62,895 nucleotides of DNA from an uncultured Anaerobiospirillum sp. (GTDB lineage Bacteria > Pseudomonadota > Gammaproteobacteria > Enterobacterales > Succinivibrionaceae), in contig CALXOW010000012.1 in the NCBI GenBank assembly GCA_944390115.1, positions 1-62,895 on the forward strand, read 5' to 3'. The notes beneath the pieces were generated by a model that did not search any database, was not told the origin of the DNA, and saw only the letters and a program-made list of their open reading frames with translations. Numbering within the stretch: the first letter of the stretch is position 1; each line of letters opens with the position of its first letter. Both the position numbers and the translations under genes were made by a program. Shown one piece after another: positions 12,567-37,071 of the stretch.

Positions 12567-12642
12567 TGGTGCTGGTTGTAGGTCTCGAACCCACGACCCC
12601 CTGTTTACAAAACAGGTGCTCTACCAACTGAGCTAAACCAGC
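12567..12642 (-). tRNA. tRNA-Thr (anticodon UGU)
   Basis: The minus strand gives a complete 76-base cloverleaf. The acceptor GCTGGTT pairs with AACCAGC, the D-arm is in AGCTCAGTTGGTAGAGC, and the anticodon stem CCTGT/ACAGG encloses loop TTTGTAA. The T-arm loop is TTCGAGA and the 3' CCA is encoded. The anticodon TGT reads ACA, hence threonine. It has its own terminator downstream and stands alone. Confidence 0.96.
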
Positions 12643-24257: not shown

Positions 24258-27200
24258 TTAAGGTTTGCGCGTCAGCTCGGCTAAAGCCTTAATGATATGG
24301 TCGTACTTTTCCTTCAAGGAGCTGTCATGCTGGAGGCGATCACGGGTGCGGACAATAGCCTCATGCACCGAGGTGTGATCCTTCTTGAAAGCACGGCCCA
24401 AATCATTGAGCGAATTATTAGCAATGACATCGCGGGCGATAGTCATAGCCAAGGAGCGTGCCTGCGAAATCGCCTTCTTCTTACAGCTCGAGAGCAAGTC
24501 CTTGACCGAGACGCCAAATTCCTTAGCGACCGTAGACTGAATCTCGCTTATCGTCAGCACATGACCTGAACCACTGCTGATAAAGCCTGAGAGCGTGCGC
24601 ACGGCATCGTCGTAGCTCAGCGAACCATTGCTGTTTAAGAAGGAGTGCAGCGTCTTGAGCGCGCCCTCGATCTCTCGCACATTTGGGTTCATATTGATCG
24701 AGATGTAATCGACGATGTCCTCAGACATAGTGATCCCCATCTCTTGGCACTTGGCATTGACGATGTCGCGGCGATTAGACCAATTCGGCTTCATCAATGG
24801 CATGCACAGACCCGAGCCCATGCGCGATAAGAGGCTAGCATCAAAGCCCTTTTCCTTAAGTTCGCGCGGCATCGTGTTAGCAGCGACAATGAGCTGCGTG
24901 CCGGGACGATCTAAGAAGGCCGAGATCACCTCAAAGAAGACCTGACGGCTCTTCACACCCTTAGCCAAGGCTTGGATGTCGTCGAAAATCAGGACGTCAT
25001 ACTGCAAGAAGGCTTGCTGGAAGTAAATCTGGCTATCGGCAAAGCGATTCTTACCGCTCTCGGAGATCGAGGACACGTAGTTCTGCAAGAACTCCTCAGC
25101 GCGGATAAAGGCCACCTTGTAATCTGGGTGATAGTAGGCAATCGCATTGGCAATAGCGTGCAGGATATGGGTCTTACCCACGCCCGAGTCGCCATAGACC
25201 AAGAACGGATTGACCTGTGAAACACCGACGTACTTAGCCAAGAGCGAAGCCGCGTTCAAAATCTCGAAATTGCGCGTGTCAGAGACGTAGGTGCTAAAGG
25301 TCTTAACCGGATTGATCTCGACCGTCGGCACCGCGAGCGTTAACTCTGGCTGCTCTGGCGTCACGCCTGCCATCGGTCCCAGCTGAGAGCCTGGATAGGA
25401 CCCCGGCAGTGGACCGCGCGGATCGATGCACGGCGCAGCAAAGCTCATCACGGGCTCCACGCCAGGGATCGCACCAGCAAGTAGACCTGGGGCGGTACCA
25501 TCAAAGCGCTCTAAGAGCTCAGGCTCACCCTTACGCTTATGCGACAGGGCGCGATTTTTGGCAAGCTCTGCTTGGCGGGCCTTATAGGCGGCACGCTGGG
25601 CCGAGACGATCTTAAACTGCTCAGCTAAAACCTGGTTTAACTTCTTGCTCGACTCAATTTGCTCGGGAGTGAGCTTGAAGTTATCTAAGTTGAGCTGATG
25701 GCGCGAGCCGTCATCAGGCAACAGGGCTTGAGCCATCAAGCTTTCTGAGCCTTCGACTTGACGCAATAAATCTGGGGCGGGCAGGACCGCTGGCTCATCT
25801 GGATTGAGCGTAGTGGTCTGCACCTTCTCTTGGTTTAAGAGGGCGTTAGGCTGCGGCAGCGAGGAGCAATTGCGCTTACGCTTAGCGGCAGCGGCATAGA
25901 CGCTTGCCATTGGGCCCGTCACCACCTGTGGTAGGGCGGCAATACTGGCGTTGCGCGCGGCTTGCTCGCGTTGCGCCTTAGCATTTAACGCTTCAGTCAC
26001 CAGGTCGGAGGCATGCACCGGCTTTAAGATCTCATCGGCGAGCTCTTCGCAGCGCGTAATGGCGCGCACCGACGGCGGCACTTCCTGCTCTAAGGCAGGC
26101 GCAGTAATCTGAGCCGACGCTGTAGCAGGCACAGCAACCGGGGCTGGCGTAGCAGCAGGCGTAGCAGGAATAGCGTGAGCGACTGGAGCCGCCCCAGCTA
26201 CGGGCTGGGCTGGAGCAACCAAATTCTGGGCTGGAGCTGCCACTAACTCGACTTCAGGCTCGACAAAATGCGGCGCAGCCTCGGGACCTGCCGACGGAGC
26301 AAGCTCCGCGCGCGCAGGCAACGGCACACGACGGCGCTCCGAGTAAGACGGAGTCCGCTCATAATCGTAGCTATCGTCGTAACTGGTCAGCTCTGGGCGC
26401 GGCATCAGCGGCATATTGTGGATCGCCGCCGCCATCGCTTCAGTATTCTGCGTGGACTTAGCGGCCGCACCGATATATGGGCCATCCTCAGGCGCTACCG
26501 TCAGGCTATTTGCAGGCAGATCTACCCCTAAGCTGTCCTCAAGACGCAGATCAGGGCCGGTCTCGTTATCCGAGGCCAATGGGGCCATGACCGGAGCGCT
26601 AAGACGCTCAGGAGAAGAAGGCAAGAAGGCTTCATCGTTAGCCACTGGCGGTACCTGCTGGTGCTCCATCTGAGGCGCGAGATGAGCCTGGACCCAATCG
26701 TCTGCAATCAGGCAGAACTCACGGGCCGCTGGATCATAGAGCGGATTTGGAGCCGGATGGGCCAGCTGTGATACATCAGGGTACACCTCACGCAGATCAG
26801 GCTGAGCGGCCTCAGCCTCGGCGATGAGGGCTGCTAAATCGCTGTTGGCAGCAAATTCGGTGTTGTTAAGGCACTGGCGATCATAAGTCTGCGAAGAGAC
26901 CGCACCATCCTGCGCTGGCTCGAAGAGATCGTTGCCGGAGGCACAGTTGCTCGGTTGGGAATCTGTAACCCATGACGAAGTGTGTAATTCCCGATGGTTT
27001 GTGTCATGTTCCTCGTAAGAGGAGTTAGCAGGCAACCTAAGCGATGCTAAATCGCCAGTTTTTACAACATCAGTTACAGCTTCACCGCCACGGCTTGAAA
27101 AATCCTGAGCGATCAAGTCCGCAGCAGCTGACTGCATCTGAATAGGGTTAGCGCCGACTGCTGGTGCAGCAGCCGCGTTAAATTCTGGGGCCGAATAATT

Positions 27201-27806
27201 TGGGGTGTGACCAAACGCGCCCACACCAGAGACCTTGGTGGAGCCTTGTGGGCCAGCAGCGTAAGCTGCACTCGCAGCAGTGCCATAAACTGCAGCGCCG
27301 TAAGCTGGAGCATGCGCAGCAGCGCCCTGCGAGGCGTGTGCCGACGCGGCCATACCTGACATACCCTGAGGGAAGGTGCCAAAACCCGCATTGATCGGGT
27401 TCAAGCCCTCGGCTGGACCTGCGGTGATCAGACAATCCACCTTAGGGAAAGCCGATGGGCCCGCTTGCATCCCCTCGAGGCTAATAGCGGCCAAAAATTC
27501 TGGGCGTGGCAGCTGACCTGACGCGTGCAGCTGAGCCAATTCCTTGGCCGAAACTACCTCCAAGGAATAGCCTAAGCTTGGGATGTCCAGCAGCGACTTT
27601 GCCTCGTTGAAGCAACGCCAGCTGTAAGGAGCAAAGCTCCTCAAGGCGTACTCCGAGGAGCAGACGAGGCGCACCTTGTCTAAGGCAGGGTCAAAGATAA
27701 AGCCCACTTCGTAGAAGAAGAGCTTTATGACCTTCGCCTCAAGCGTCTCTGCTGTCGACGCGGCAACCCTTAAGATTACCTCACGCCAAATTTGCCAAGA
27801 GTTCAT
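24258..27806 (-). CDS. dnaA: Chromosomal replication initiator DnaA with a giant domain II linker
   Basis: DnaA binds oriC and melts it in its ATP form. Domain I (residues about 1-90, MNSWQIWREVILRV) is divergent. The AAA+ domain III begins near residue 835 (KTFSTYV) with Walker A YGDSGVGKTH and Walker B LIFDDIQAL. Domain IV has the DNA-binding signature RAFKKDHTSVHEAI. The frame is uninterrupted for 1182 codons, against about 467 in E. coli, because domain II spans some 735 residues rich in Ala, Pro, Gln and acidic residues. The linker has no recognisable fold. Codon use in the linker looks like that of neighbouring genes and there is no in-frame stop, so this looks like a real expanded protein. 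The ribosome site upstream is weak. A shorter internal start cannot be excluded, but would lose domain I. Confidence 0.93.
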   Translation of the reverse strand: MNSWQIWREVILRVAASTAETLEAKVIKLFFYEVGFIFDPALDKVRLVCSSEYALRSFAPYSWRCFNEAKSLLDIPSLGYSLEVVSAKELAQLHASGQLPRPEFLAAISLEGMQAGPSAFPKVDCLITAGPAEGLNPINAGFGTFPQGMSGMAASAHASQGAAAHAPAYGAAVYGTAASAAYAAGPQGSTKVSGVGAFGHTPNYSAPEFNAAAAPAVGANPIQMQSAAADLIAQDFSSRGGEAVTDVVKTGDLASLRLPANSSYEEHDTNHRELHTSSWVTDSQPSNCASGNDLFEPAQDGAVSSQTYDRQCLNNTEFAANSDLAALIAEAEAAQPDLREVYPDVSQLAHPAPNPLYDPAAREFCLIADDWVQAHLAPQMEHQQVPPVANDEAFLPSSPERLSAPVMAPLASDNETGPDLRLEDSLGVDLPANSLTVAPEDGPYIGAAAKSTQNTEAMAAAIHNMPLMPRPELTSYDDSYDYERTPSYSERRRVPLPARAELAPSAGPEAAPHFVEPEVELVAAPAQNLVAPAQPVAGAAPVAHAIPATPAATPAPVAVPATASAQITAPALEQEVPPSVRAITRCEELADEILKPVHASDLVTEALNAKAQREQAARNASIAALPQVVTGPMASVYAAAAKRKRNCSSLPQPNALLNQEKVQTTTLNPDEPAVLPAPDLLRQVEGSESLMAQALLPDDGSRHQLNLDNFKLTPEQIESSKKLNQVLAEQFKIVSAQRAAYKARQAELAKNRALSHKRKGEPELLERFDGTAPGLLAGAIPGVEPVMSFAAPCIDPRGPLPGSYPGSQLGPMAGVTPEQPELTLAVPTVEINPVKTFSTYVSDTRNFEILNAASLLAKYVGVSQVNPFLVYGDSGVGKTHILHAIANAIAYYHPDYKVAFIRAEEFLQNYVSSISESGKNRFADSQIYFQQAFLQYDVLIFDDIQALAKGVKSRQVFFEVISAFLDRPGTQLIVAANTMPRELKEKGFDASLLSRMGSGLCMPLMKPNWSNRRDIVNAKCQEMGITMSEDIVDYISINMNPNVREIEGALKTLHSFLNSNGSLSYDDAVRTLSGFISSGSGHVLTISEIQSTVAKEFGVSVKDLLSSCKKKAISQARSLAMTIARDVIANNSLNDLGRAFKKDHTSVHEAIVRTRDRLQHDSSLKEKYDHIIKALAELTRKP

Positions 27807-28189
27807 AAAACGAACATACCCTCAGCGACGTATCACCCCCGCCACCATCTTCAAAAGCGAGCTGACGCTAAGTCATAACGCTTTTGGAGATGAAGCGTGT
27901 ATCGGGAATCTTTACGCGCTCTAAGAGCAGCCCACGTGTCACCTGAGGTCACACGATGAAGCCTATGACTGACCTAGGATCAAATAGTGACTTGCACCGC
28001 GACTAAGCGGCACAGTTAAGCAACCATTCAACCGTTGATTACGACTACGCTCAGGTGGAGTCGTGCACCCATTTACTCAAGCACTAGGGAATACGCCTGA
28101 AACTCTCTGACTCAGATGCCAAGTAACCTTGAGCGCCTTAGGCAGCAATCACGCGCAAACTAGCTCCTTCAACTAACAACACCAAAAAG
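27807..28189. other. dnaA upstream region
   Basis: This 380-base stretch precedes dnaA on minus and joins it to the GATC-rich origin. It must contain the dnaA promoter, but I see no clean -10/-35 pair and no consensus DnaA box here. Confidence 0.35.
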
Positions 28190-29530
28190 TTAAGTTCTCA
28201 CGATCCAGATCCAGATCGATCTCGATCTAGATCGCGGCACGATCGCAAAAAGTGATCGTGTGACCCTTAAATATGATCTTAAGCGATCAGATACGATCGG
28301 ATCCATACTGATCTAATGCGATCACAAAGCCGATCTCGATCAGCTTTATGCGCCAAGCATGCTCCTATCTCATTTCCCGCGCTCCGCGAGCAGCGCGCCA
28401 AGAAATTGATCCAAGAACAGTCTCAAGATCCTTTCCCGATTGTGTCACTTAACCCAGAACAACGTAGGTAACTCAAGTAAACTTCCTGTCAGCTCAACCT
28501 TAGGTGTCACCGCCACCAAAAGAAGCGATGGATTAAGCCTTATGGAGACACAAGCGCACCTTGGTCATGATGTTGGACCCGCTGCTGCGGACCAGTACCA
28601 CCAAAAACACTCGATTGTTTGTTGTTTGATTGGGTCAGGAACTGCCTTACGATCTAAGATCAATAAGTCAGTCGGTTATTGACACGGGTTTTACTAAAAC
28701 TTGCCACAAAACCGATGGGACAAGCACTCCGAAAACCACCGGAAATTGTGCATATGATACGGGGTTCCGGGTCTAAGATCAAGTGATCAAAGCGCGATCA
28801 AATGGGATTTGCATGCGTTTTGTGGGCTTTCTAGCTACCAGTTGGAGCACGTCTCAAAAGGTCTAATTTGATCGGATTGATGATCAAAATTATCACGAAC
28901 GCCCATTCCTGTCGGGCTCGTGACCACCCCCGCACGCCCAATCGTCACGCCTAGCTCAACATTTTGAGCACACCAAAAGCCTACAAAAAATTTTTTCGTG
29001 TATATCTAGATCTCAATTTGCCCTTAGCACCGATCGCACTTAGATCAGATCTAAGATCACCGATCAGGCTAGATCGGATCTAAGCAAGATCGAGATCACC
29101 ACCTAAAGTGCCCTAAAAATCAGGGCTCCCACGATGATCTGACTTTAGATCCAAGAGCGATCTGAGTAGCAGGAAGATAGACATCGTATAGACAACAGAT
29201 AGACGGTTGGTAGACATTCGATAGATGATCTGCCGCTCGCTCAATTCAGCGATCTGGGAAAAGATCCAAGCGGCGATCACCCTCTGCCCTCGATCTCGTT
29301 AAAACCGCGATTTTATGCGCCTTCTCCATCGTGATCTTAAGATCGATCACCCAGCGCTCACATGCTCGATCTACGGCGAGATCACACCGCGATCTAATAC
29401 TTGATCTCAGGTGCACCACCACGCGATCTCGGAGCAGATCACCACCACACGCAAGATCAGCCTACTTCGTGATCACAGGGCAGATCGCCGCCCTGCGTAC
29501 GCAGGGTCGCCATGATCACAAAGCTCACCG
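28190..29530. other. Probable replication origin oriC, saturated with GATC
   Basis: I count about 56 GATC sites in roughly 1.3 kb, where about five would be expected by chance. Up to eight occur in a single 60-base stretch (28200-28260 and 29041-29100). The region lies directly upstream of dnaA, between dnaA and rpmH, the classical oriC position. The tract ACAAAAAATTTTTT at 28984-28997 is a candidate unwinding element. AGATCT, described as an ATP-DnaA recognition hexamer in E. coli, occurs near 29007 and 29047. I find only one near-consensus 9-mer DnaA box (ATATGCACA on minus, near 28747-28756). No credible gene overlaps the region. Confidence 0.8.
29177..29226 (+). repeat. Five hexamers phased at exactly 11 bp inside oriC
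   Basis: ATAGAC at 29177, 29188 and 29199, GTAGAC at 29210 and ATAGAT at 29221 follow one another at exact 11-base steps, close to one helical turn. Such phasing is typical of multimeric binding sites or iterons. It lies within the GATC-rich origin but is itself free of GATC until its end. Confidence 0.75.
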
Positions 29531-30068
29531 AACGCTACTCCTCTGAGCGCGCTGCTAACCCGCCCTTTTGTGCCTTAACACTAAGACTTTGGGGCATAAA
29601 ACGCCGGCCCCCGCAGAGTCGCCGTAACCAGCTGCTTGCACCGCGCCTCTTAACACCGCCCAAAATCTTTAACCAAGGCACAAAAAGCTGATAAACAAGG
29701 CGTTTTAGCCCAGCAGAGCGGCCTGAAACAACAACCCAAGCCAGCCCATGCGGCTGGCCCACTCAAGTCAAGCAAAAGCGCATATTTATGCCCTTTTACC
29801 GCTAAAACATGCTTCTTTGGAAAATTGGGACTATATAGCTTTATTTGCTCAAGGACAGATTGTCCCCAAAAAATTTTTAACACGCGCAAAGCCGCATCAG
29901 ATCAGGCTTTGCGGGCAATTTGAGTGACCACAACGCCAAAAGCGTGACCGCAATCACAATATTTTCCAAGAATCGCATAAAATCGGGCTTGGCGGCCCCT
30001 TAACCCACCTCCTGAATAAGAAAAGGTCCCCGAGGCCCAAAAGCGCGCATCGTAAATTTGAAATCAGG
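29531..30068. other. Gene-free region with hairpins, right of oriC
   Basis: No supportable gene. Hairpins include CCAGCC/GGCTGG (about 29739-29756), GGAC/GTCC (near 29854) and GCAAAGCC/GGCTTTGC (about 29886-29910). Near 29679 there is AAAGCTGATAAACAAGGCG, resembling the GCTGATAAATAT hairpins in the parS cluster. Frames on minus here show no family resemblance. A small RNA ending at the terminator at 30072 is possible but unproven. Confidence 0.4.
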
Positions 30069-30071
30069 TAA

Positions 30072-30100
30072 AGCCTTTGAGTTCGCTCAAAGGCTTTTTT
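30072..30100 (+). terminator. Strong UUCG-loop terminator just upstream of the unknown operon
   Basis: AGCCTTTGAG at 30072-30081 pairs perfectly with CTCAAAGGCT at 30086-30095 around loop TTCG and is followed by six T residues. It ends only 29 bases before the first ORF of the operon, so either that operon starts from a promoter inside this short gap or the structure is a leader attenuator. Confidence 0.85.
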
Positions 30101-30128
30101 ATTACCCCAAACACCGCAGGAGCACGCC

Positions 30129-30305
30129 ATGTCACGCAAGACCCGCGAACGCCGCAAGGCCAAAGCCCAAGAGCTCAACGCTCTCAATCACTCAGAAACT
30201 CCGCACTCGGAGGCCAAGACCAAGCCGCAGCACCAGCTGCTGCGCCGCTTCTCGCCGCTGTCCTTGCGCGTCGCCTTTTGGGCCTCATTCACCGACTACG
30301 ACTAA
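30129..30305 (+). CDS. Small basic protein of unknown function (58 aa)
   Basis: An ORF of 58 codons begins MSRKTRERRKAKAQELNALN and ends FWASFTDYD. An AGGAG ribosome site is correctly placed before the ATG. The first fourteen residues are almost all basic, which suggests nucleic acid binding. The second half has a short hydrophobic patch (LSLRVAFWASF). I do not recognise a family. The stop is followed by AAAGGAG and a 15-codon ORF, then TAAGGAG and the 1176-codon gene, so the three look translationally arranged as one operon. Larger overlapping frames in the same interval lack ribosome sites and are less likely. Confidence 0.65.
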   Translation: MSRKTRERRKAKAQELNALNHSETPHSEAKTKPQHQLLRRFSPLSLRVAFWASFTDYD

Positions 30306-30316
30306 AGGAGCGCCTC

Positions 30317-30364
30317 ATGAAACCTAAACCGGTCCCGTTCCCAACCGCCACCACCGCTAAATAA
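30317..30364 (+). CDS. 15-codon ORF, possible leader peptide
   Basis: ATG at 30317 is preceded by AAAGGAG and encodes MKPKPVPFPTATTAK before a TAA stop. The TAA at 30362 runs into the TAAGGAG ribosome site of the next gene, nine bases before its ATG. Four prolines in the first nine residues (Pro-x-Pro-x-Pro) suggest a slow, EF-P-sensitive translation that could couple to the next gene. This functional idea is inference. Confidence 0.5.
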   Translation: MKPKPVPFPTATTAK

Positions 30365-30373
30365 GGAGTTCAT

Positions 30374-33300
30374 ATGGAACACCTACTACTTCAAGGCCAT
30401 GCTGCCACCGCCCATGAGCAGCATTACTTCAGCCCGGCACCGACCAGTGCTTACCTGACCACGCATCAAGACGTAAGCGAGAACCACGAGACTAAGGTAG
30501 CCGAGCGCGCCGCCGCCGCCCGCGCCCGCTTAGCGCAAGCAGCGCAAGTACGTGCCACCCAGCAGGCCTACCTGCACCACCAAATGCAAGCTTTCAACTC
30601 TTGGTACGCCCAGGCGCAGCAAACCAACGCCGCTGAGAGCGCAGCTCCAGCGCCGGACTATGCTGAGGCCGACTCGTCGCACTTACAGCTCAAGCCGGAG
30701 CTGTTAGCTAAGCTCAGCACCTTCCCGCCAAAGGCCGCTCAGATCACTTGTGCCTGCAAGTGCCTGCGCTCGCATCCCATCGCCCAGGTGCCCGTAAAGC
30801 AGCAGGCGCGTGCTCACAAGCGCACCAAGTCCGAGCAGTTAAGCTGCGATTATTTGGCGCTGATCTTAAGCTGCCTCAAGCCGGCCGAGCGTCCTGCTTT
30901 CTACAATACCTGCCTGACCAACCTCAACGCGCTTGACGGCCTGACCGGCGCGCAGTTGCAGCAGCAAGAGCAAGCTGCCGCCCACTATGCGCCGCTCACC
31001 TTACGCACTTGGGCCAATCAGTTCAGCGGTGCCCCCGAGGCTCAGCTCACCCGTGCTTGGACTTACGCTGATCTCAGCCATTTTGAGTGCTGTGATTATG
31101 AGCTGCCGCAGCAACCTAAGGCCTACGACGTCAAACGCACATGCTTAGGCTTAAGCGAGCGTGCTCAGTGCGTCACCTTAGAGGCACAACAGGCGATCTA
31201 CGATCTGAGCCTGAACCTCAATCGCCTGCAACCGCGCTACTTGGGCCCCGCTCTGACCAAGATCAATCCGCTCTTTGAGCTTGATGGCGTCGGCTTCATC
31301 CAAGGCTTAGCAAAGTTAGGCTGCTTCATTACCCAGCGCTACCCATTAGCCGCGCTGCTGGCTCCGCAGATCAACCCAACTGATCCGACTGACCCTACCA
31401 AGCTGCAAGAGCAGGTGAACACCTATCTCAAGTCCACTGAGGCCAAGCTCACCGCCAAGCTGCGCAAGCAGGCTGAGCGCAACGACGCCCAGTTCCAAAA
31501 GGAGCAGGAGCAAGCTCAGCAACAGGCTCTTGCCCCTAAGTCCGATCACTCAGATCCCGATGATCAAGGCGGCAGTTCGGGCTCCAATGATTCAGGCTCA
31601 ACGCCAAATGACTCAGGCAACATGCCTGGTGGCAGCGGCAGCTCTGAGGGCGTCGCAGCGGCCAGCTCGACAGATAACCCGGTAGATCTAGCAGATCACG
31701 ATTGGTTCGTACCGGTCTTGCCCGAGTCACCTTTTGGCTCGGAGCACTCGGCCGACACCGTTGATCCAGTAGATCACGACTGGTTCGTACCGGTCTTGCC
31801 TGAGTCGCCTTTTGGCTCGGTCGACGCCGTAGCTCCAGAAGAGCACGACTGGTTTGTACCGGTCCTGCCTGAGTCGCCTTTTGGCTCTGAGCACTCGGCC
31901 GACACCGTAGATCCAGAAGATCACGACTGGTTCGTGCCGATTCTGCCTGAATCGCCTTTTGGCTCTGAGCGCGCGGCCGACACCGTTGATCCAGAAGATC
32001 ACGACTGGTTTGTGCCGATTCTGCCTGAATCGCCTTTTGGCTCGGTCGACGCCGTAGCTCCAGAAGAGCACGACTGGTTTGTACCGGTCCTGCCTGAGTC
32101 GCCTTTTGGCTCTGAGCACTCGGCCGACACCGTAGATCCAGAAGATCACGACTGGTTCGTGCCGATTCTGCCTGAATCGCCTTTTGGCTCTGAGCGCGCG
32201 GCCGACACCGTTGATCCAGTCGATCACGACTGGTTCGTGCCGGTTCTGCCTGAGTTTAGCTTGAGCGCTGCGCCTCAAAGCGAGTCCAATCTCGTCCCGG
32301 CAGCAGATCCTGAGGATGAACTTCCTTGGAGCGCGCCATGCCTGCCGGTTACTGATTTTGGCTTAAGCGCCGATCCTCAGATCAACGTGGCCTTGGACTA
32401 TGACGAGGTCGTTTCGACCTATCAACAGCACGAGCTCACGCCGGTCATGCCTGATCTGTGCTACCTGCGCCCTATGCTGACCGAACTGCCGCACGCTCCT
32501 GCCTTCTTAGCCCAGCATGCTCAGATCCAGCATGACGCTACTAATCCCGAGCGCTGGTCGGCAACCTTTCCGCAGCTCTACGGCAGCTCCAACTCGTACG
32601 GCTACGTCGATCTGGTGCAGCCTAAGTTAGTCAACGCCCTCGACCCTCAGTGTTGGGTAGGCGCGAGCGCCGGTGCCCTGCCCCACACCTTCGTGCTGCC
32701 CCAGCCCATTGTCACTTGTGATGCCCAAGGCGTACCGCAGGGCCTCGTGCTCGACATGATGAATCAAGGCCATGCAGCAGCCGCCACGCTTCTTAAAACC
32801 TACTCTCAGTACGACTTTGAGGCGTATCTGGCCACCGGTTATTTGACCTTTGAGCACGGCCTGCAGGTATTTGAGGGCTTCCGTCGCACCTGGCTCAACA
32901 ACAATGGAGGTGCAGGCTTTGCCGTCAGCTCCGATCAAACGGCACCGGAGTATTTAGAATTAAGCCTTACCGACTGCCACAGCATCGGAGCCGATCCTGC
33001 TGAATTGTCCGGCTATTGCTTTGCCCCATTGCCTTACGATGTGCTGCGCATCGAGCAAATGGCCGTGGAAAGCTCCTACGCCACTGCCGCGCATCCCTTT
33101 GGTCCGGTCGCTACCACCGGCCTTGCCCCTTATTGCAATGCCTTCCGCTACCTGAAGCAGCAGGGGGGTAGCACTGACCAGCTCAGCGCCATAGAGTACA
33201 AGCTGCATGAGGCTGCCTTCAAACTGCATTGGTATGCCAATCGTCGCTTAAACTTCGAGTACAGCTGCGCCTTGGTTAACCAAGCCTTAGCCGCCAGCGG

Positions 33301-33904
33301 CCGTCAGGTCTGCTATGACATCCACCACTGTGATTGGGTCGCCAATGAAGCCCAGCGCAATATCTTAATGCAAGCCCGTCGCGTCGAAGGTCAATTACGC
33401 AACGCTCTCAACACGCTCGACCAGCTGTGCGCGCACGTACCGTACTACCAGGCTGAGCTTGATCCTAACGAGGGCTTGGGAGCCCTTTATGCTGCGGCGC
33501 AGCACAAGCAATTGGCTTTAGGGGCGACCGCCTTTAATTACTCAGCTTTGCCTCCGTTGCCGCAAGGCAAGTTGCCGCCGTTCTTAAGCACCGAGGATAG
33601 CTATCGCTTACTGCAAAATCGTGCCTTGTTCGCTGCTATCAAAACCCAGTTTAGTGGTGACTCTGAGCGCGCAGAGCTCAAGGAGCTGCGCGCGCGCAGC
33701 ATTCAGGCCAACTTGGCGGGGAGCAAGATCAGGGATCTGATCGATCAGAACCTACCTGAAGCCACTGCCAAGGTTAAGGGGCTGATCGACTCGGGGATGG
33801 AGTTCTTTGACGCAAGCGAGGTCGGCGCTAAGGCCAAGACCTGGCTGGATCAGGGCAGCTCCAAGGTCATGGATCTGCTGGGACGCTTCACCAAGCACAA
33901 CTAG
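30374..33904 (+). CDS. 1176-aa repeat protein of unknown function next to oriC
   Basis: I do not recognise a family. A TAAGGAG ribosome site precedes the ATG. The N-terminal half is Ala/Gln/Leu-rich and probably helical, with a CACKCLRSH Cys cluster near residue 120. Residues about 440-635 hold eight near-identical repeats of HDWFVPVLPESPFGS separated by acidic linkers, alternating 26- and 23-residue periods. Repeats 3-5 and 6-8 are nearly the same block, indicating recent duplication. A long Tyr/Cys-rich, apparently folded region follows, and the C-terminus is basic and helical (GSKIRDLIDQNLPEATAKVKG region). No signal peptide or membrane segment is seen. It is the last gene of a three-ORF operon, between oriC and the giant RNA candidate. 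Base composition resembles neighbouring genes. Confidence 0.85.
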   Translation: MEHLLLQGHAATAHEQHYFSPAPTSAYLTTHQDVSENHETKVAERAAAARARLAQAAQVRATQQAYLHHQMQAFNSWYAQAQQTNAAESAAPAPDYAEADSSHLQLKPELLAKLSTFPPKAAQITCACKCLRSHPIAQVPVKQQARAHKRTKSEQLSCDYLALILSCLKPAERPAFYNTCLTNLNALDGLTGAQLQQQEQAAAHYAPLTLRTWANQFSGAPEAQLTRAWTYADLSHFECCDYELPQQPKAYDVKRTCLGLSERAQCVTLEAQQAIYDLSLNLNRLQPRYLGPALTKINPLFELDGVGFIQGLAKLGCFITQRYPLAALLAPQINPTDPTDPTKLQEQVNTYLKSTEAKLTAKLRKQAERNDAQFQKEQEQAQQQALAPKSDHSDPDDQGGSSGSNDSGSTPNDSGNMPGGSGSSEGVAAASSTDNPVDLADHDWFVPVLPESPFGSEHSADTVDPVDHDWFVPVLPESPFGSVDAVAPEEHDWFVPVLPESPFGSEHSADTVDPEDHDWFVPILPESPFGSERAADTVDPEDHDWFVPILPESPFGSVDAVAPEEHDWFVPVLPESPFGSEHSADTVDPEDHDWFVPILPESPFGSERAADTVDPVDHDWFVPVLPEFSLSAAPQSESNLVPAADPEDELPWSAPCLPVTDFGLSADPQINVALDYDEVVSTYQQHELTPVMPDLCYLRPMLTELPHAPAFLAQHAQIQHDATNPERWSATFPQLYGSSNSYGYVDLVQPKLVNALDPQCWVGASAGALPHTFVLPQPIVTCDAQGVPQGLVLDMMNQGHAAAATLLKTYSQYDFEAYLATGYLTFEHGLQVFEGFRRTWLNNNGGAGFAVSSDQTAPEYLELSLTDCHSIGADPAELSGYCFAPLPYDVLRIEQMAVESSYATAAHPFGPVATTGLAPYCNAFRYLKQQGGSTDQLSAIEYKLHEAAFKLHWYANRRLNFEYSCALVNQALAASGRQVCYDIHHCDWVANEAQRNILMQARRVEGQLRNALNTLDQLCAHVPYYQAELDPNEGLGALYAAAQHKQLALGATAFNYSALPPLPQGKLPPFLSTEDSYRLLQNRALFAAIKTQFSGDSERAELKELRARSIQANLAGSKIRDLIDQNLPEATAKVKGLIDSGMEFFDASEVGAKAKTWLDQGSSKVMDLLGRFTKHN

Positions 33905-34072
33905 GGTGGGGATCTCAGTCACTCTTGAGTGGCTGGGGTTAAGTCACTTCTTGGTGGGCCTGGGGGAAGGCCTACCATCTTGGTTATGCTTGAGTACTAC
34001 CAGCTTGATCTCGTGCTGGATCAAGAACGGCATTTAGATCGGCTTTGACGATCAAAAATGTTGGAGTTTTAC

Positions 34073-34102
34073 TTGATCTTAAAGCCGGAAAATTTGTAAA
34101 AT
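34073..34102 (+). promoter_or_regulatory. Sigma70-type promoter for the candidate large RNA
   Basis: TTGATC at 34073-34078 and TAAAAT at 34097-34102 are separated by 18 bases, giving a predicted start near 34109. It lies about 170 bases after the 1176-codon gene, and no ORF of 60 codons or more begins in either direction until rnpA. Confidence 0.6.
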
Positions 34103-34274
34103 AAGGTATTCAAACTTTTGCCCCTAGGGTTGGTGTGTCCATCCTAGGTATGCTGAAGGCTGCGGGATGCAAATCCTGCGCGCTTTTGGTACTTGGTGAA
34201 GGTTAAGGATTTCCTGTTACCAGGAATGAAGTAGCTAACAGTGCTCTTCTCTTAGTTGAGATGAAACTAGGCTT

Positions 34275-34916
34275 AGCCTTGAGCTCTCTTAACTATGAGG
34301 ATTGATGCTCGGTGCTTAGCTTTGAGCTCTCCTGAGAATGAGAGGTAGTTAAACCTTGAGCTCTCTTGTGAGATTGCCCAAATTGAGCCTTGAGCTCTCT
34401 ACCTGAGATTGAACTCGGTAGCCTGCTGCTCTCCGAGCTTTGGATTGAGCTTGGCGGTTGCTTTGAGCTCTCTTAGTTAGAATCGATTGACGCTCGGTTG
34501 CTTTGAGCTCTCAGCTTGCGGTGATTTATCGCTGTGAGTTTGATTGAGCTTGGTGGCCTTGAGCTCTCTTCTAAATAAGATTGAGCTTGGCAGTTGCTTT
34601 GAGCTCTCCTAAGTGGGGATTGAGCGCGGCAGCCTTGAGATCTCTTGGGTATCGATTGATGCTCGGTGAAAGTTTGGATGGTCTAATGAGATTGAGTTCG
34701 GTGCGATTGCTTTAAATTTCTTTTGGGATTGAGCTTGGCGGTACCTTGAGCTCTCCGATTAGTGGAGATTGAGTTCGGCCACCATGTTGCTCTCTTTAGG
34801 GAGTGATCGATGTTCGCAGGCCTTGAGCTCTCCTAAGTGCGGACTTCTCTGAAGTCAGGTGTTTAGTTGATTGAGTTCGGTTTGCTTGAGCTCTCGCCTT
34901 AGAGATTGAGCTCGGT
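34275..34916 (+). repeat. Array of about 15 hairpin units with GAGCUCUC core
   Basis: Exact GAGCTCTC occurs at 34281, 34324, 34358, 34392, 34465, 34505, 34561, 34601, 34748, 34825 and 34888, with degenerate copies near 34429, 34637, 34703 and 34789. Spacing is 34-66 bases. Most units fit one fold: CC, a UU bulge, GAGC, then UCUC, a variable loop of 4-9 bases, GAGA, UUGA, GCUC and GG. The inner stem changes but stays paired in different units: TCTC/GAGA, TCTCC/GGAGA, TCTT/AAGA, CTCTC/GAGAG, TCTCC/GGGGA. Outer G-U replacements (GTTC, GCTT) also keep pairing. This pattern of compensatory change supports selection on RNA structure. Confidence 0.8.
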
Positions 34917-35940
34917 GCGTCTGGGGACGTTTCCTAAGAGGAAACTGTGGTTGCTTATTTTCTGGGGCATGCGCAGCCTCAACTTATTCAGCTTGAGTAG
35001 GGAGAGGAGCCTGCCTCGACTTAAGGTGCTTTCTTTGCGCCCCATCCTGAAGAGCTACTTTGGCTCCTCGGTTGATTGAACCAAGCACTAGGTGCAGTGT
35101 GCGCGACTACTCGGCTAGCTGCAGTTAGAGTCTTGGCCAGAATAGACTGGGAGCGGTCTACGGGTCTTTGGCACGTAGACTACTCTAAACTCCAGTTTGT
35201 TTTACGGCTGACTTAACCCGCAGTGGGCTGTAGCGGTGCACTACATCCAAAGTTTGGTTTGATTGACCTCAAGAGACAAAGCCTGATTCTTCCTTGGTTT
35301 TTTCGCGCAAAAAAAGAGCCTCGGGGAAGTGCGGCCTAAATTCTTGGGCTGTTGCCTCAAAAGTCGTGGTGCTCTGCTCTAACTTGGGTTTGAAGGTCGA
35401 GGCTTACGCAGCTCTGCAACTCCAGCAAGGCATTTTGCGCTTGGCACGTTAACGTGCGCTTGCTCTTAATGTTAGGCATCGAGTGCTTGCATCCAGGCAC
35501 GATGTGGTTTGCTGGCTAGCCGCTTCACTCGGTCAGGAACTCTGCGTTACGTAACGCCCTCTTAAACAGAGCATTACGGGCGGACTAAACTTCGGTTTAG
35601 TCTGAGAGATTGGCTTCAATCAGCGCGCACGGCCAGAGGTCTAGCCAAAGGCTACCAAAGGCTGATGGTGACTTGGTACCACGGCGCTTTGCTTAATTAG
35701 GTGGAGCAAAGTGAGCGGTACTCGGCACGCCTCAGGTAAGCCAGGCATAGCGATGTGCTTGAGCCCACAGAGCTTTGCACGCGAAGTAAAGCTGCTCTCC
35801 AGCCCTTTCCTTTTGAGCCTAAGACGCGTATGCTATGGGGCTCTCAAGGCTCAGGCGTTATGAACCTTGCAGGTCTAAATCTCCTTTTGGGGAGATTGTG
35901 CTGCCCCTGTTTTTGGGGGTAGGGGGCCTTATGGCCAAAG

Positions 35941-35962
35941 AGACCACTTAGTGGTCTTTTTT
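35941..35962 (+). terminator. Intrinsic terminator of the candidate large RNA
   Basis: GACCAC at 35942-35947 pairs with GTGGTC at 35951-35956 around a three-base loop and is followed by six T residues. The opposite strand lacks a comparable T-run, which assigns the transcript to plus. Confidence 0.85.
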
Positions 35963-36067
35963 GTGCCAATTTTTTCTTAGCTGAATACGGGTTCGTATCC
36001 AGCACCAGCATCGATGATTAAGGCACTGCCGCTGAGGCAATTGCCGCCCCTTTGGAGAATTTGTTAA

Positions 36068-36202
36068 ATGAAACGTACTTTTCAGCCTAACGTTTTAAAG
36101 CGTAAGCGCACCCACGGTTTCCGTAAGCGTATGGCTACCGCTGATGGTCGCAAGGTTTTATCCCGTCGTCGTGCAAAGGGCCGCAAGCGTTTAACCGTCT
36201 AG
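36068..36202 (+). CDS. rpmH: 50S ribosomal protein L34
   Basis: L34 is a small basic protein of the large ribosomal subunit. The 44-residue product begins [19 protein letters not shown] and ends [10 protein letters not shown], matching L34 almost residue for residue. A GGAG ribosome site lies upstream. It is the first gene of the classical rpmH-rnpA-yidD-yidC-mnmE series on the opposite side of oriC from dnaA. In most bacteria rpmH lies within a few hundred bases of dnaA; here about 8 kb separates them. Confidence 0.98.
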
Positions 36203-36212
36203 TTACGCCGTA

Positions 36213-36581
36213 ATGCCTAACCATGCCTTTCCTCGGGAAGTCCGCCTGTTGACGCCCGAGGATTACGACCAGGTATTTAAGAAGCCCGTACGCGCAGGTT
36301 GCAATGGCATGTTGGTTCTTGCTCGCAAGAACGAACTGTCACATCCGCGCCTCGGGCTAATTGTGCCTAAGAAGGTGCTCAAACGAGCCGTATGGCGCAA
36401 TCGGGTCAAGCGTCTGGTGCGCGAATCATTTCGCTTAAGCCAAGATAGCCTGCCCAATGTCGACCTGGTCTTTTTAGCCAAGCCGGGCATAGGTGACCTG
36501 AGCAATCGCGACTTAACTTCTGCTCTTACACGGCTATGGGCTCAAATCTCTCGCCAATTGGGCAAAGCGCGATCCTCCTGA
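36213..36581 (+). CDS. rnpA: Ribonuclease P protein component
   Basis: RnpA is the protein cofactor of RNase P, which matures tRNA 5' ends. The 122-residue sequence has the conserved [13 protein letters not shown] helix (RNR motif) and [16 protein letters not shown]. It starts 10 bases after rpmH, as usual, and its end overlaps yidD by 46 bases. Confidence 0.96.
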
Positions 36582-36907
36582 TCCGCACCTACCAAAAAGT
36601 TCTAAGTCCTCTCTTAGGGCAGCGCTGCCGCTTCTATCCAAGCTGTTCGCAATACACCCTCGAAGCCATCCAAGAATGGGGTTTGGCCAAGGGGACGTGG
36701 CTGGGAATGAAGCGTTTGAGCCGTTGCCACCCCTTAAATGAGGGCGGCTTTGATCCCGTACCTAGAAGAAATGGCACGGTTTCAGACCTAGAGAGCGCTC
36801 AGGAAAATCCTACCGCAGATTCAAATCTTCAGGCTCAGCCTGAGGATTTGTCACACCTAAAGAAAACTGAGGCTGACGCCACACCACCTAAATCCTCCCA
36901 ATCTTAG
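36536..36907 (+). CDS. yidD: Membrane protein insertion efficiency factor YidD
   Basis: YidD is a small inner-membrane-associated protein that assists YidC-dependent insertion. The family signature is clear: [16 protein letters not shown], then [14 protein letters not shown]. Length is 123 residues. After the conserved domain there is a polar tail (from about residue 80) rich in Glu, Ser, Pro and Gln. It overlaps the 3' end of rnpA, the normal arrangement, which implies translational coupling. Confidence 0.94.
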
Positions 36908-37071
36908 TCCCCGCAAGCGCGGGACGCTATAGCGCCTGAGAGGCTCGGGAAAGCTGGGAGCGTGGGTGGGGAGCTATTTTTGTCCTGAGGTGCACCTAGG
37001 CGCAAACTTGATTTTGCGTGCCAGGTTGGTCTTTGGCCCGGCTGGGGCGCTCAAGCGCTAAGTTCTTTAGG

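Follow-up and report, generated by a model that had tools for sequence, protein, structure and literature searches.

The interval directly upstream of rpmH in the DNA of an uncultured Anaerobiospirillum sp. analyzed here (the window, a stretch of 62,895 nucleotides in all) is predicted to encode a single structured RNA of ~1.85 kb on the + strand, which consists of two domains and in which a tandem array of hairpins would form a multivalent binding platform. We assign this combined reading a probability of about 0.5, and its components differ in strength. That the interval yields a real, conserved, structured RNA is highly probable, judging from the sequence comparisons, and that the multivalent platform is the main role of this RNA is a tentative proposal, plausible at somewhat less than even odds. 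Comparison of the four genomes carrying the interval, namely, that of the window (G000) and three relatives (G003, G009 and G010), shows a predicted fold that is conserved in part, substitutions that keep base pairs, conservation above that of the spacers nearby, and a shared position upstream of rpmH. The initial annotation of this DNA had proposed a new large RNA class, a proposal that is supported by the conservation, the pair-keeping substitutions and the lack of an Rfam match at the gathering score, for a class found in one clade only.

The genes of the locus, named from their sequences together with their order, are, from left to right, dnaN and dnaA, both on the − strand, followed on the + strand by an ORF of 1176 amino acids (aa), the RNA interval, rpmH, rnpA, yidD, yidC and mnmE. 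Among the matches listed, the best for YidC of the window is that of Candidatus Anaerobiospirillum stercoravium (94%). In all four carriers, the RNA lies directly upstream of rpmH, the gene for ribosomal protein L34 (36068..36202, + strand), which is the first gene downstream and is on the same strand in each of these genomes. The 1176-aa ORF upstream of the RNA (30374..33904, + strand) contains internal DHDWFVPVLPESPFGSE-type repeats and has no Pfam match. It belongs to a multi-copy family represented in 4 of the 57 genomes of the bacterial family, the same four that carry the RNA, a co-occurrence that follows from the carriers sharing one clade. Next to the RNA in G009, this ORF is broken, aligning over 38 of 3531 bases (1%). 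Given this break, the multiple copies and the lack of a Pfam match, we did not adopt the protein as an obligatory partner of the RNA.

Several features of the dnaA side are unusual in their own right. The region between dnaA and the large ORF (27807-30373) contains 58 GATC sites compared to 9.6 expected from composition, an origin-like cluster, and no match to the TTWTNCACA DnaA box. The dnaA ORF (24258-27806) is 1182 aa in length, a very long central part of it being of low complexity, and the ORF of a relative reaches 2669 aa, whereas the usual DnaA is far shorter. The gap between dnaA and rpmH is 1.3-3.6 kb in four RNA-less genomes of the genus (L116-L119) versus 144-634 bases in 9 other loci examined in the family.

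As initially annotated, the interval 34073-35962 is devoid of ORFs of at least 60 codons: the longest in any frame is 57 aa, and a 76-aa ORF from the same ORF list ends at 34037, ahead of the interval. The RNA copies of G003, G009 and G010 contain ORFs of 94-189 aa, and a frame on the antisense strand near 34899-35045 has 48 aa here and 156 aa in G003. A hidden protein was nevertheless rejected, given that no ORF here exceeds 57 aa and that the longer ORFs of the relatives are at differing places, mostly on the − strand.

The predicted RNA (34109..35962, + strand) would start ~7 bases past the −10 box of a promoter and end at a U-tract. It opens with a 5′ end domain (34109..34240, + strand) of variable stem-loops followed by a conserved GAAGTAGCTAACAG-like block. 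The front third of the RNA harbours the tandem hairpin array (34277..34917, + strand), which was overlooked in the initial annotation: 12 exact copies of TTGAGCTC occur in 727 bases, compared to 0.1 expected from shuffles. The array consists of repeats of the module CC-UU-GAGCUC-UC, a variable segment, and GA-UU-GAGCUY-GG. By pattern, there are 12, 12, 11 and 15 regular 5′ arms and 13, 13, 14 and 17 regular 3′ arms in G000, G003, G009 and G010, respectively, with one G009 arm in the latter set appearing spurious. A UU precedes the GAGCU[CU] arms almost without exception (16/17, 16/16, 13/14 and 13/13 across the four genomes, 58/60 overall), and the inner loops are variable. Furthermore, the copy number of the array varies; in G010, a 97-nt unit of two hairpins is duplicated in tandem.

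When each 5′ arm is paired with the directly following 3′ arm (local pairing), 176 of the 186 cells are canonical (31 units); when each 3′ arm is paired with the next 5′ arm (neighbour pairing), 179 of 198 are (33 units). Pairings involving a 7-base 3′ arm, 11 of them local and 7 neighbour, enter neither count. The neighbour pairing scores almost as high as the local one because the arms are palindromic. Three hairpins of G010 carry GAUCUC/GAGAUU in place of GAGCUC/GAGCUU-type arms, a compensated change that gives a full local fit and a poorer neighbour fit. The combination of a constant module with free loops points to recognition of the module or, alternatively, to homogenisation of the repeats.

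The same arms lend themselves to another reading, under which the RNA would be an RNA-only multimer like OLE, ROOL and GOLLD, perhaps held together by self-complementary GAGCUC arms that pair between molecules. Such pairing would suit the arms, which remain palindromic for the most part and differ little between units or species, and the size and ornate core of the RNA resemble those of known RNA-only complexes (PMC12286853). However, local pairing accounts for the arms. The loops give a divided picture as well: one hairpin loop forms a palindrome in G000 and G010, with different letters in the latter, but not in G003 or G009. In addition to many strong hairpins in general, the initial annotation had singled out a UUCG stem (35583-35602) and two 14-base palindromes (35444-35457 and 35544-35557). 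All three are present in the window, but they are only partly kept in relatives: the UUCG stem is not kept at the aligned place, the exact form of the first palindrome is absent from the three relatives, with a different 12-base palindrome at this place in G010, and the second palindrome, likewise counting against the multimer, is retained in G003 only. Palindromic loops as conserved kissing loops were rejected because each is palindromic in just two of the four genomes. Overall, we consider the multimer distinctly unlikely.

The 3′ kilobase of the RNA includes several predicted structural domains on the + strand. Core E (35619..35741) is the best supported of these, with 34 pairs, 136 of 136 cells paired and 7 pairs changed on both sides, a number not reached in any of 500 shuffles, although scoring used the very four sequences from which the structure had been derived, which favours it. 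For further pair types in core E, 23 of 500 shuffles were as high. Six of the seven double changes are in one apical stem; in G010, most of this stem is replaced, and the loop it carries is conserved. Core B (34964..35236) combines conserved hairpins with one long hairpin whose distal stem is replaced; of its 60 pairs, 4 show double changes and 15 are broken in one sequence. One stem, formed differently by each sequence, seems to be misplaced by the aligner, as illustrated, though not tested, by a set of helices chosen by hand once the folds were known. Core D (35420..35520), which includes the first of the two palindromes, has 32 pairs with 2 double changes; 71 of 500 shuffles were as high, so this domain is weak on its own. 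Close to the 3′ end, there are two hairpins, AATCTCC/GGAGATT and CCCCTG/TGGGGG (35878..35919, + strand). Covariation, sought in the relatives as the mark of a structured RNA, was thus found, and it is strong only in core E and parts of the array.

A separate observation concerns the segment 35813-35860, a CCTAAGRCGCGTATGCTATG block that is nearly invariant across the four RNA copies and may represent an additional rpmH promoter or a tertiary contact. An 11-nt pattern near 35813-35850, which we took to resemble a tetraloop receptor, was dropped because it is not kept in G009.

Folding of complete sequences is in line with a structured + strand RNA. The first 852 nt (34109-34960) fold with a z-score of −8.6 (20 shuffles), and the z-scores for the whole RNA are −8.3, −9.4, −12.1 and −9.1 on the + strand and −7.4, −6.1, −5.4 and −5.2 on the − strand in G000, G003, G009 and G010, respectively (10 shuffles each). 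The alignment was also divided into 22 half-overlapping windows. The + strand consensus is lower in energy in 19 of these (best z −8.8) and richer in double-changed pairs in 16, with 4 ties and 2 windows with fewer; in the column-shuffle z-score, a control with a mixed outcome, the − strand is the more negative one in 11 of the 22. When folds of single sequences were tested on the others (nine comparisons for each strand), one-sided changes kept pairing in 28-41% of the cases on the + strand and in 20-24% on the − strand; double changes were kept in 44-67% versus 33-57%, not far above chance. The choice of strand thus rests on energy, G-U use and one-sided changes, and the + strand is likely rather than proven. 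The initial annotation had the transcript running toward rpmH, and most of the strand evidence fits this direction, the windowed z-scores being mixed. In sum, an RNA structure is well supported by these predictions, and its placement on the + strand moderately so.

The strand comparison also bears on whether the repeats could act as DNA, with GAGCTC serving as protein-binding sites near the origin and the hairpins being incidental. The proximity of dnaA, the palindromic nature of GAGCTC in DNA and the − strand z-scores in half of the windows would all suit such an element. However, pairing within the array makes use of G-U (GAGCUU and GAGUUC arms), which fits only the + strand as RNA, and the better folding of this strand in all four genomes, together with its higher share of one-sided changes that keep pairing, also speaks against DNA sites. 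Moreover, the 3′ kilobase, which has no such array, is conserved too. A DNA-level element therefore appears very improbable.

Conservation in relatives with the same gene order, one of the checks set out in the initial annotation, was detected in G003, G009 and G010, in a comparison that encompasses four RNA sequences, two of them ~90% alike. In G009, the RNA aligns over 1427 of 1860 bases (77%; 721/852 at 80% identity for the 5′ part and 706/1008 at 77% for the 3′ part), whereas the four spacers align over 0-42% of their length: 697 of 2567 bases at 72.5% on the dnaA side, 0 of the 168 bases ahead of the promoter, 111 of 329 at 87% between yidD and yidC, and 92 of 220 at 75% between yidC and mnmE. 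In G010, 1348 of the 1860 bases of the RNA align (736/852 in the 5′ part and 612/1008 in the 3′ part, at 76%), compared to 90 of 329 for the yidD-yidC spacer and 0 of 220 for the yidC-mnmE spacer; the contig starts near the promoter, so that the large ORF and the dnaA side are uninformative in this genome. In G003, the RNA aligns in full, at 93% (5′ part) and 88% (3′ part); for the spacers, 61-73% of the length aligns, with 80-94% identity. Among the coding genes, yidC, rnpA and mnmE are 78-89% identical in G009 and G010. What sets the RNA apart is thus the proportion of its length that is retained, which exceeds that of its neighbours, rather than its identity, which is no higher than theirs where these align.

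A promoter of the sigma70 type, TTGATC-18-TAAAAT (34073..34102, + strand), precedes the RNA, and its architecture matches that of the presumed rpmH promoter of the relatives. The motif reported in the initial annotation is present and of a recurring type, but its score alone is at chance level, with 1 promoter found between 33000 and 37000 against 1.7 expected. Within up to 2.6 kb upstream of rpmH, this promoter type was identified in 9 of 10 genomes, with one match each and always an 18-bp spacer, these counts being raw matches to a pattern that permitted spacers of 17-19. The exception is G001, with no match within the 579 bases available upstream of rpmH, and the variants include TTGCTT in G008 and TAGAAT in G006. 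In the five RNA-less relatives (G004-G008), the promoter is located at −361 to −429 relative to rpmH, whereas the four carriers have it at −1995 to −2390. By sequence, the RNA interval sits between an rpmH-type promoter and rpmH and, because this promoter resembles the rpmH promoter of RNA-less relatives, the RNA appears to be placed within the rpmH leader. Therefore, instead of being a gene of its own, it may in part be a leader.

Taken further, this arrangement would make the whole RNA a giant cis-acting leader of the rpmH-rnpA operon, the fold and terminator of which set the operon output. The shift in promoter position between carriers and other relatives would suit such a leader, as would the scan of 33000-37000, where the only promoter is the one at 34073, with none between the terminator and rpmH. 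In addition, of the 99 bases from the terminator to rpmH, 91-98 align in each of the other three carriers, and the GCTGAATAC..GTATCCAGC-type hairpin of this segment is found in G005-G007 as well. The intrinsic terminator that the initial annotation placed on the same strand is readily seen in the sequence (stem 35942-35947/35951-35956, T6 at 35957-35962, + strand) and in the RNA fold, although the consensus scan missed it; a stem followed by T6 is also found in G003 and G010, and none is clear in G009, which would again agree with a leader. On the other hand, a stem with T6 in three of the four genomes suggests a released RNA, the RNA-less relatives manage with a leader of ~320-390 nt, and no shared leader peptide was noticed. 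We also know of no leader regulator of nearly 1.85 kb with a repeated array. On balance, we regard a purely cis-acting giant leader as unlikely.

Among the 11 genomes of the genus, which named relatives identify as Anaerobiospirillum, a DNA search identified the interval in four, G000, G003 (91%), G009 (74%) and G010 (76%), the values for G009 and G010 being those of the best pieces. Six other genomes match only at rpmH or just before it, and the locus of G002, where nothing matched at all, is uninformative. The four carriers, which are gut bacteria, group together as a single clade in a 14-row YidC tree (support 100/100). Across the 57 genomes of the family, the DNA search added two short matches, of ~48 bases in G012 (L006), rejected as a relative because it looks like coding DNA, and of 24 bases in G060 (L125); a further weak match is L007 in G048. 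A covariance model of core E (R1) recovered the same four carriers and none of the 46 other family genomes, and a fifth match, L132 in G001 (E 0.013), was dismissed as low-complexity, coding-looking DNA. Over 295 sampled genomes of the order, the core E model matched G000 and G009 only, G003 and G010 evidently being outside this sample, and RNA-bearing relatives may exist beyond the genomes examined. This distribution suggests that RNAs of this kind can be missed by broad surveys, being limited to a single clade of a genus.

Searches of 50,697 phage and 72,556 plasmid records gave no match to the RNA, nor did two exact RNA patterns match in viral contigs. Within its own genome, there is one full copy, and six other matches are of 18-24 bases. 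The G009 copy includes, in a highly variable region (L114:5975-6225), an inserted dispersed repeat of ~220 nt that has 21 matches in that genome. This insertion and the broken neighbouring ORF are what might be expected of an ordinary spacer, a decayed mobile element or a decayed gene. The conservation above neighbouring spacers and the pair-preserving changes argue against decay, as do the single full copy and the lack of matches in the phage and plasmid collections, making this explanation extremely improbable.

The structured RNA with a binding platform can be outlined as follows. The anatomy of the locus suggests that transcription would proceed from the former or present rpmH promoter and that the RNA would mostly end at the terminator ahead of rpmH, with some read-through or processing feeding rpmH. 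The RNA would then act in trans as a folded molecule. Its array would offer ~12 copies of a two-fold symmetric module, with UUGAGCUC on both strands and a UU bulge beside each arm, and may represent a multivalent binding platform for a putative, perhaps dimeric, RNA-binding protein. The 3′ kilobase would fold into a core by which this platform is held or positioned. With expression under a ribosomal-protein promoter, the level of the RNA would follow the growth rate. A bolder version, which we find rather unlikely, is a new giant RNA class in which the hairpin array is joined to an ornate core of 1 kb and the self-complementary arms link copies into a network or cage of RNA alone, its production coupled to that of the ribosome through a takeover of the rpmH promoter. 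To our knowledge, the architecture of an array plus an ornate core has no parallel in other giant RNAs. If true, a further, unrelated giant RNA class at a chromosomal housekeeping locus would widen the sample of such RNAs, and the repeat array, which invites a simple binding test, would make it a tractable case.

The initial annotation recognised no motif of the known large RNA classes, and the interval matches no Rfam family: at gathering scores, the whole window yields only a tRNA against Rfam 15, and two matches at E up to 1 are both under their gathering scores. OLE, ROOL and GOLLD are contained in the Rfam library, and the interval has no match to the covariance models of these families at the gathering score; by the tests made here, they are similar in kind but not related. 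Apart from ribosomal RNA, we are aware of few bacterial RNAs of comparable size. Like OLE, the RNA is large, ornate and chromosomal; OLE genes are in a chromosomal context, in hosts that differ from Anaerobiospirillum. It shares with ROOL the large size, complex secondary structure and lack of a known protein partner, and we know of no tandem hairpin array of such type in ROOL. GOLLD is likewise a very large, ornate bacterial RNA, whereas the RNA described here is located upstream of rpmH and contains a hairpin array. GOLLD is a phage and prophage RNA often found near tRNA islands, with many members exceeding 800 nt, ROOL occurs in phages and prophages, the partner protein of OLE is OapA, and the functions of all three are poorly understood (PMC12286853). 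Instead of the phage, prophage or near-tRNA location typical of ROOL and GOLLD, the present RNA is found between dnaA and rpmH, and the only tRNA of the window is at 12567-12642. A displaced or expanded RNase P RNA was rejected because a match to that RNA is present elsewhere in all 11 genus genomes (in G009, as pieces on two contigs). Among the literature matches listed, judged by titles and the starts of abstracts, none describes such an RNA in Anaerobiospirillum, at rpmH/dnaA or among large structured RNAs.

CsrB and RsmZ are protein-sequestering RNAs with repeated hairpins and many GGA motifs in the hairpin loops. A relation to CsrB was rejected, given that the Rfam CsrB model matches in 0 of the 11 genus genomes (and does match in the E. 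coli control). The GGA counts in the array, irrespective of loop position, are 10, 6, 10 and 13 in the four genomes versus shuffled means of 13.6, 12.7, 12.5 and 20.7, and CsrA is present in 11 of the 11 genus genomes. The likeness of the RNA to CsrB and RsmZ, a working analogy only, is that of repeated hairpins on one RNA acting as a multivalent platform, here on a molecule several times longer.
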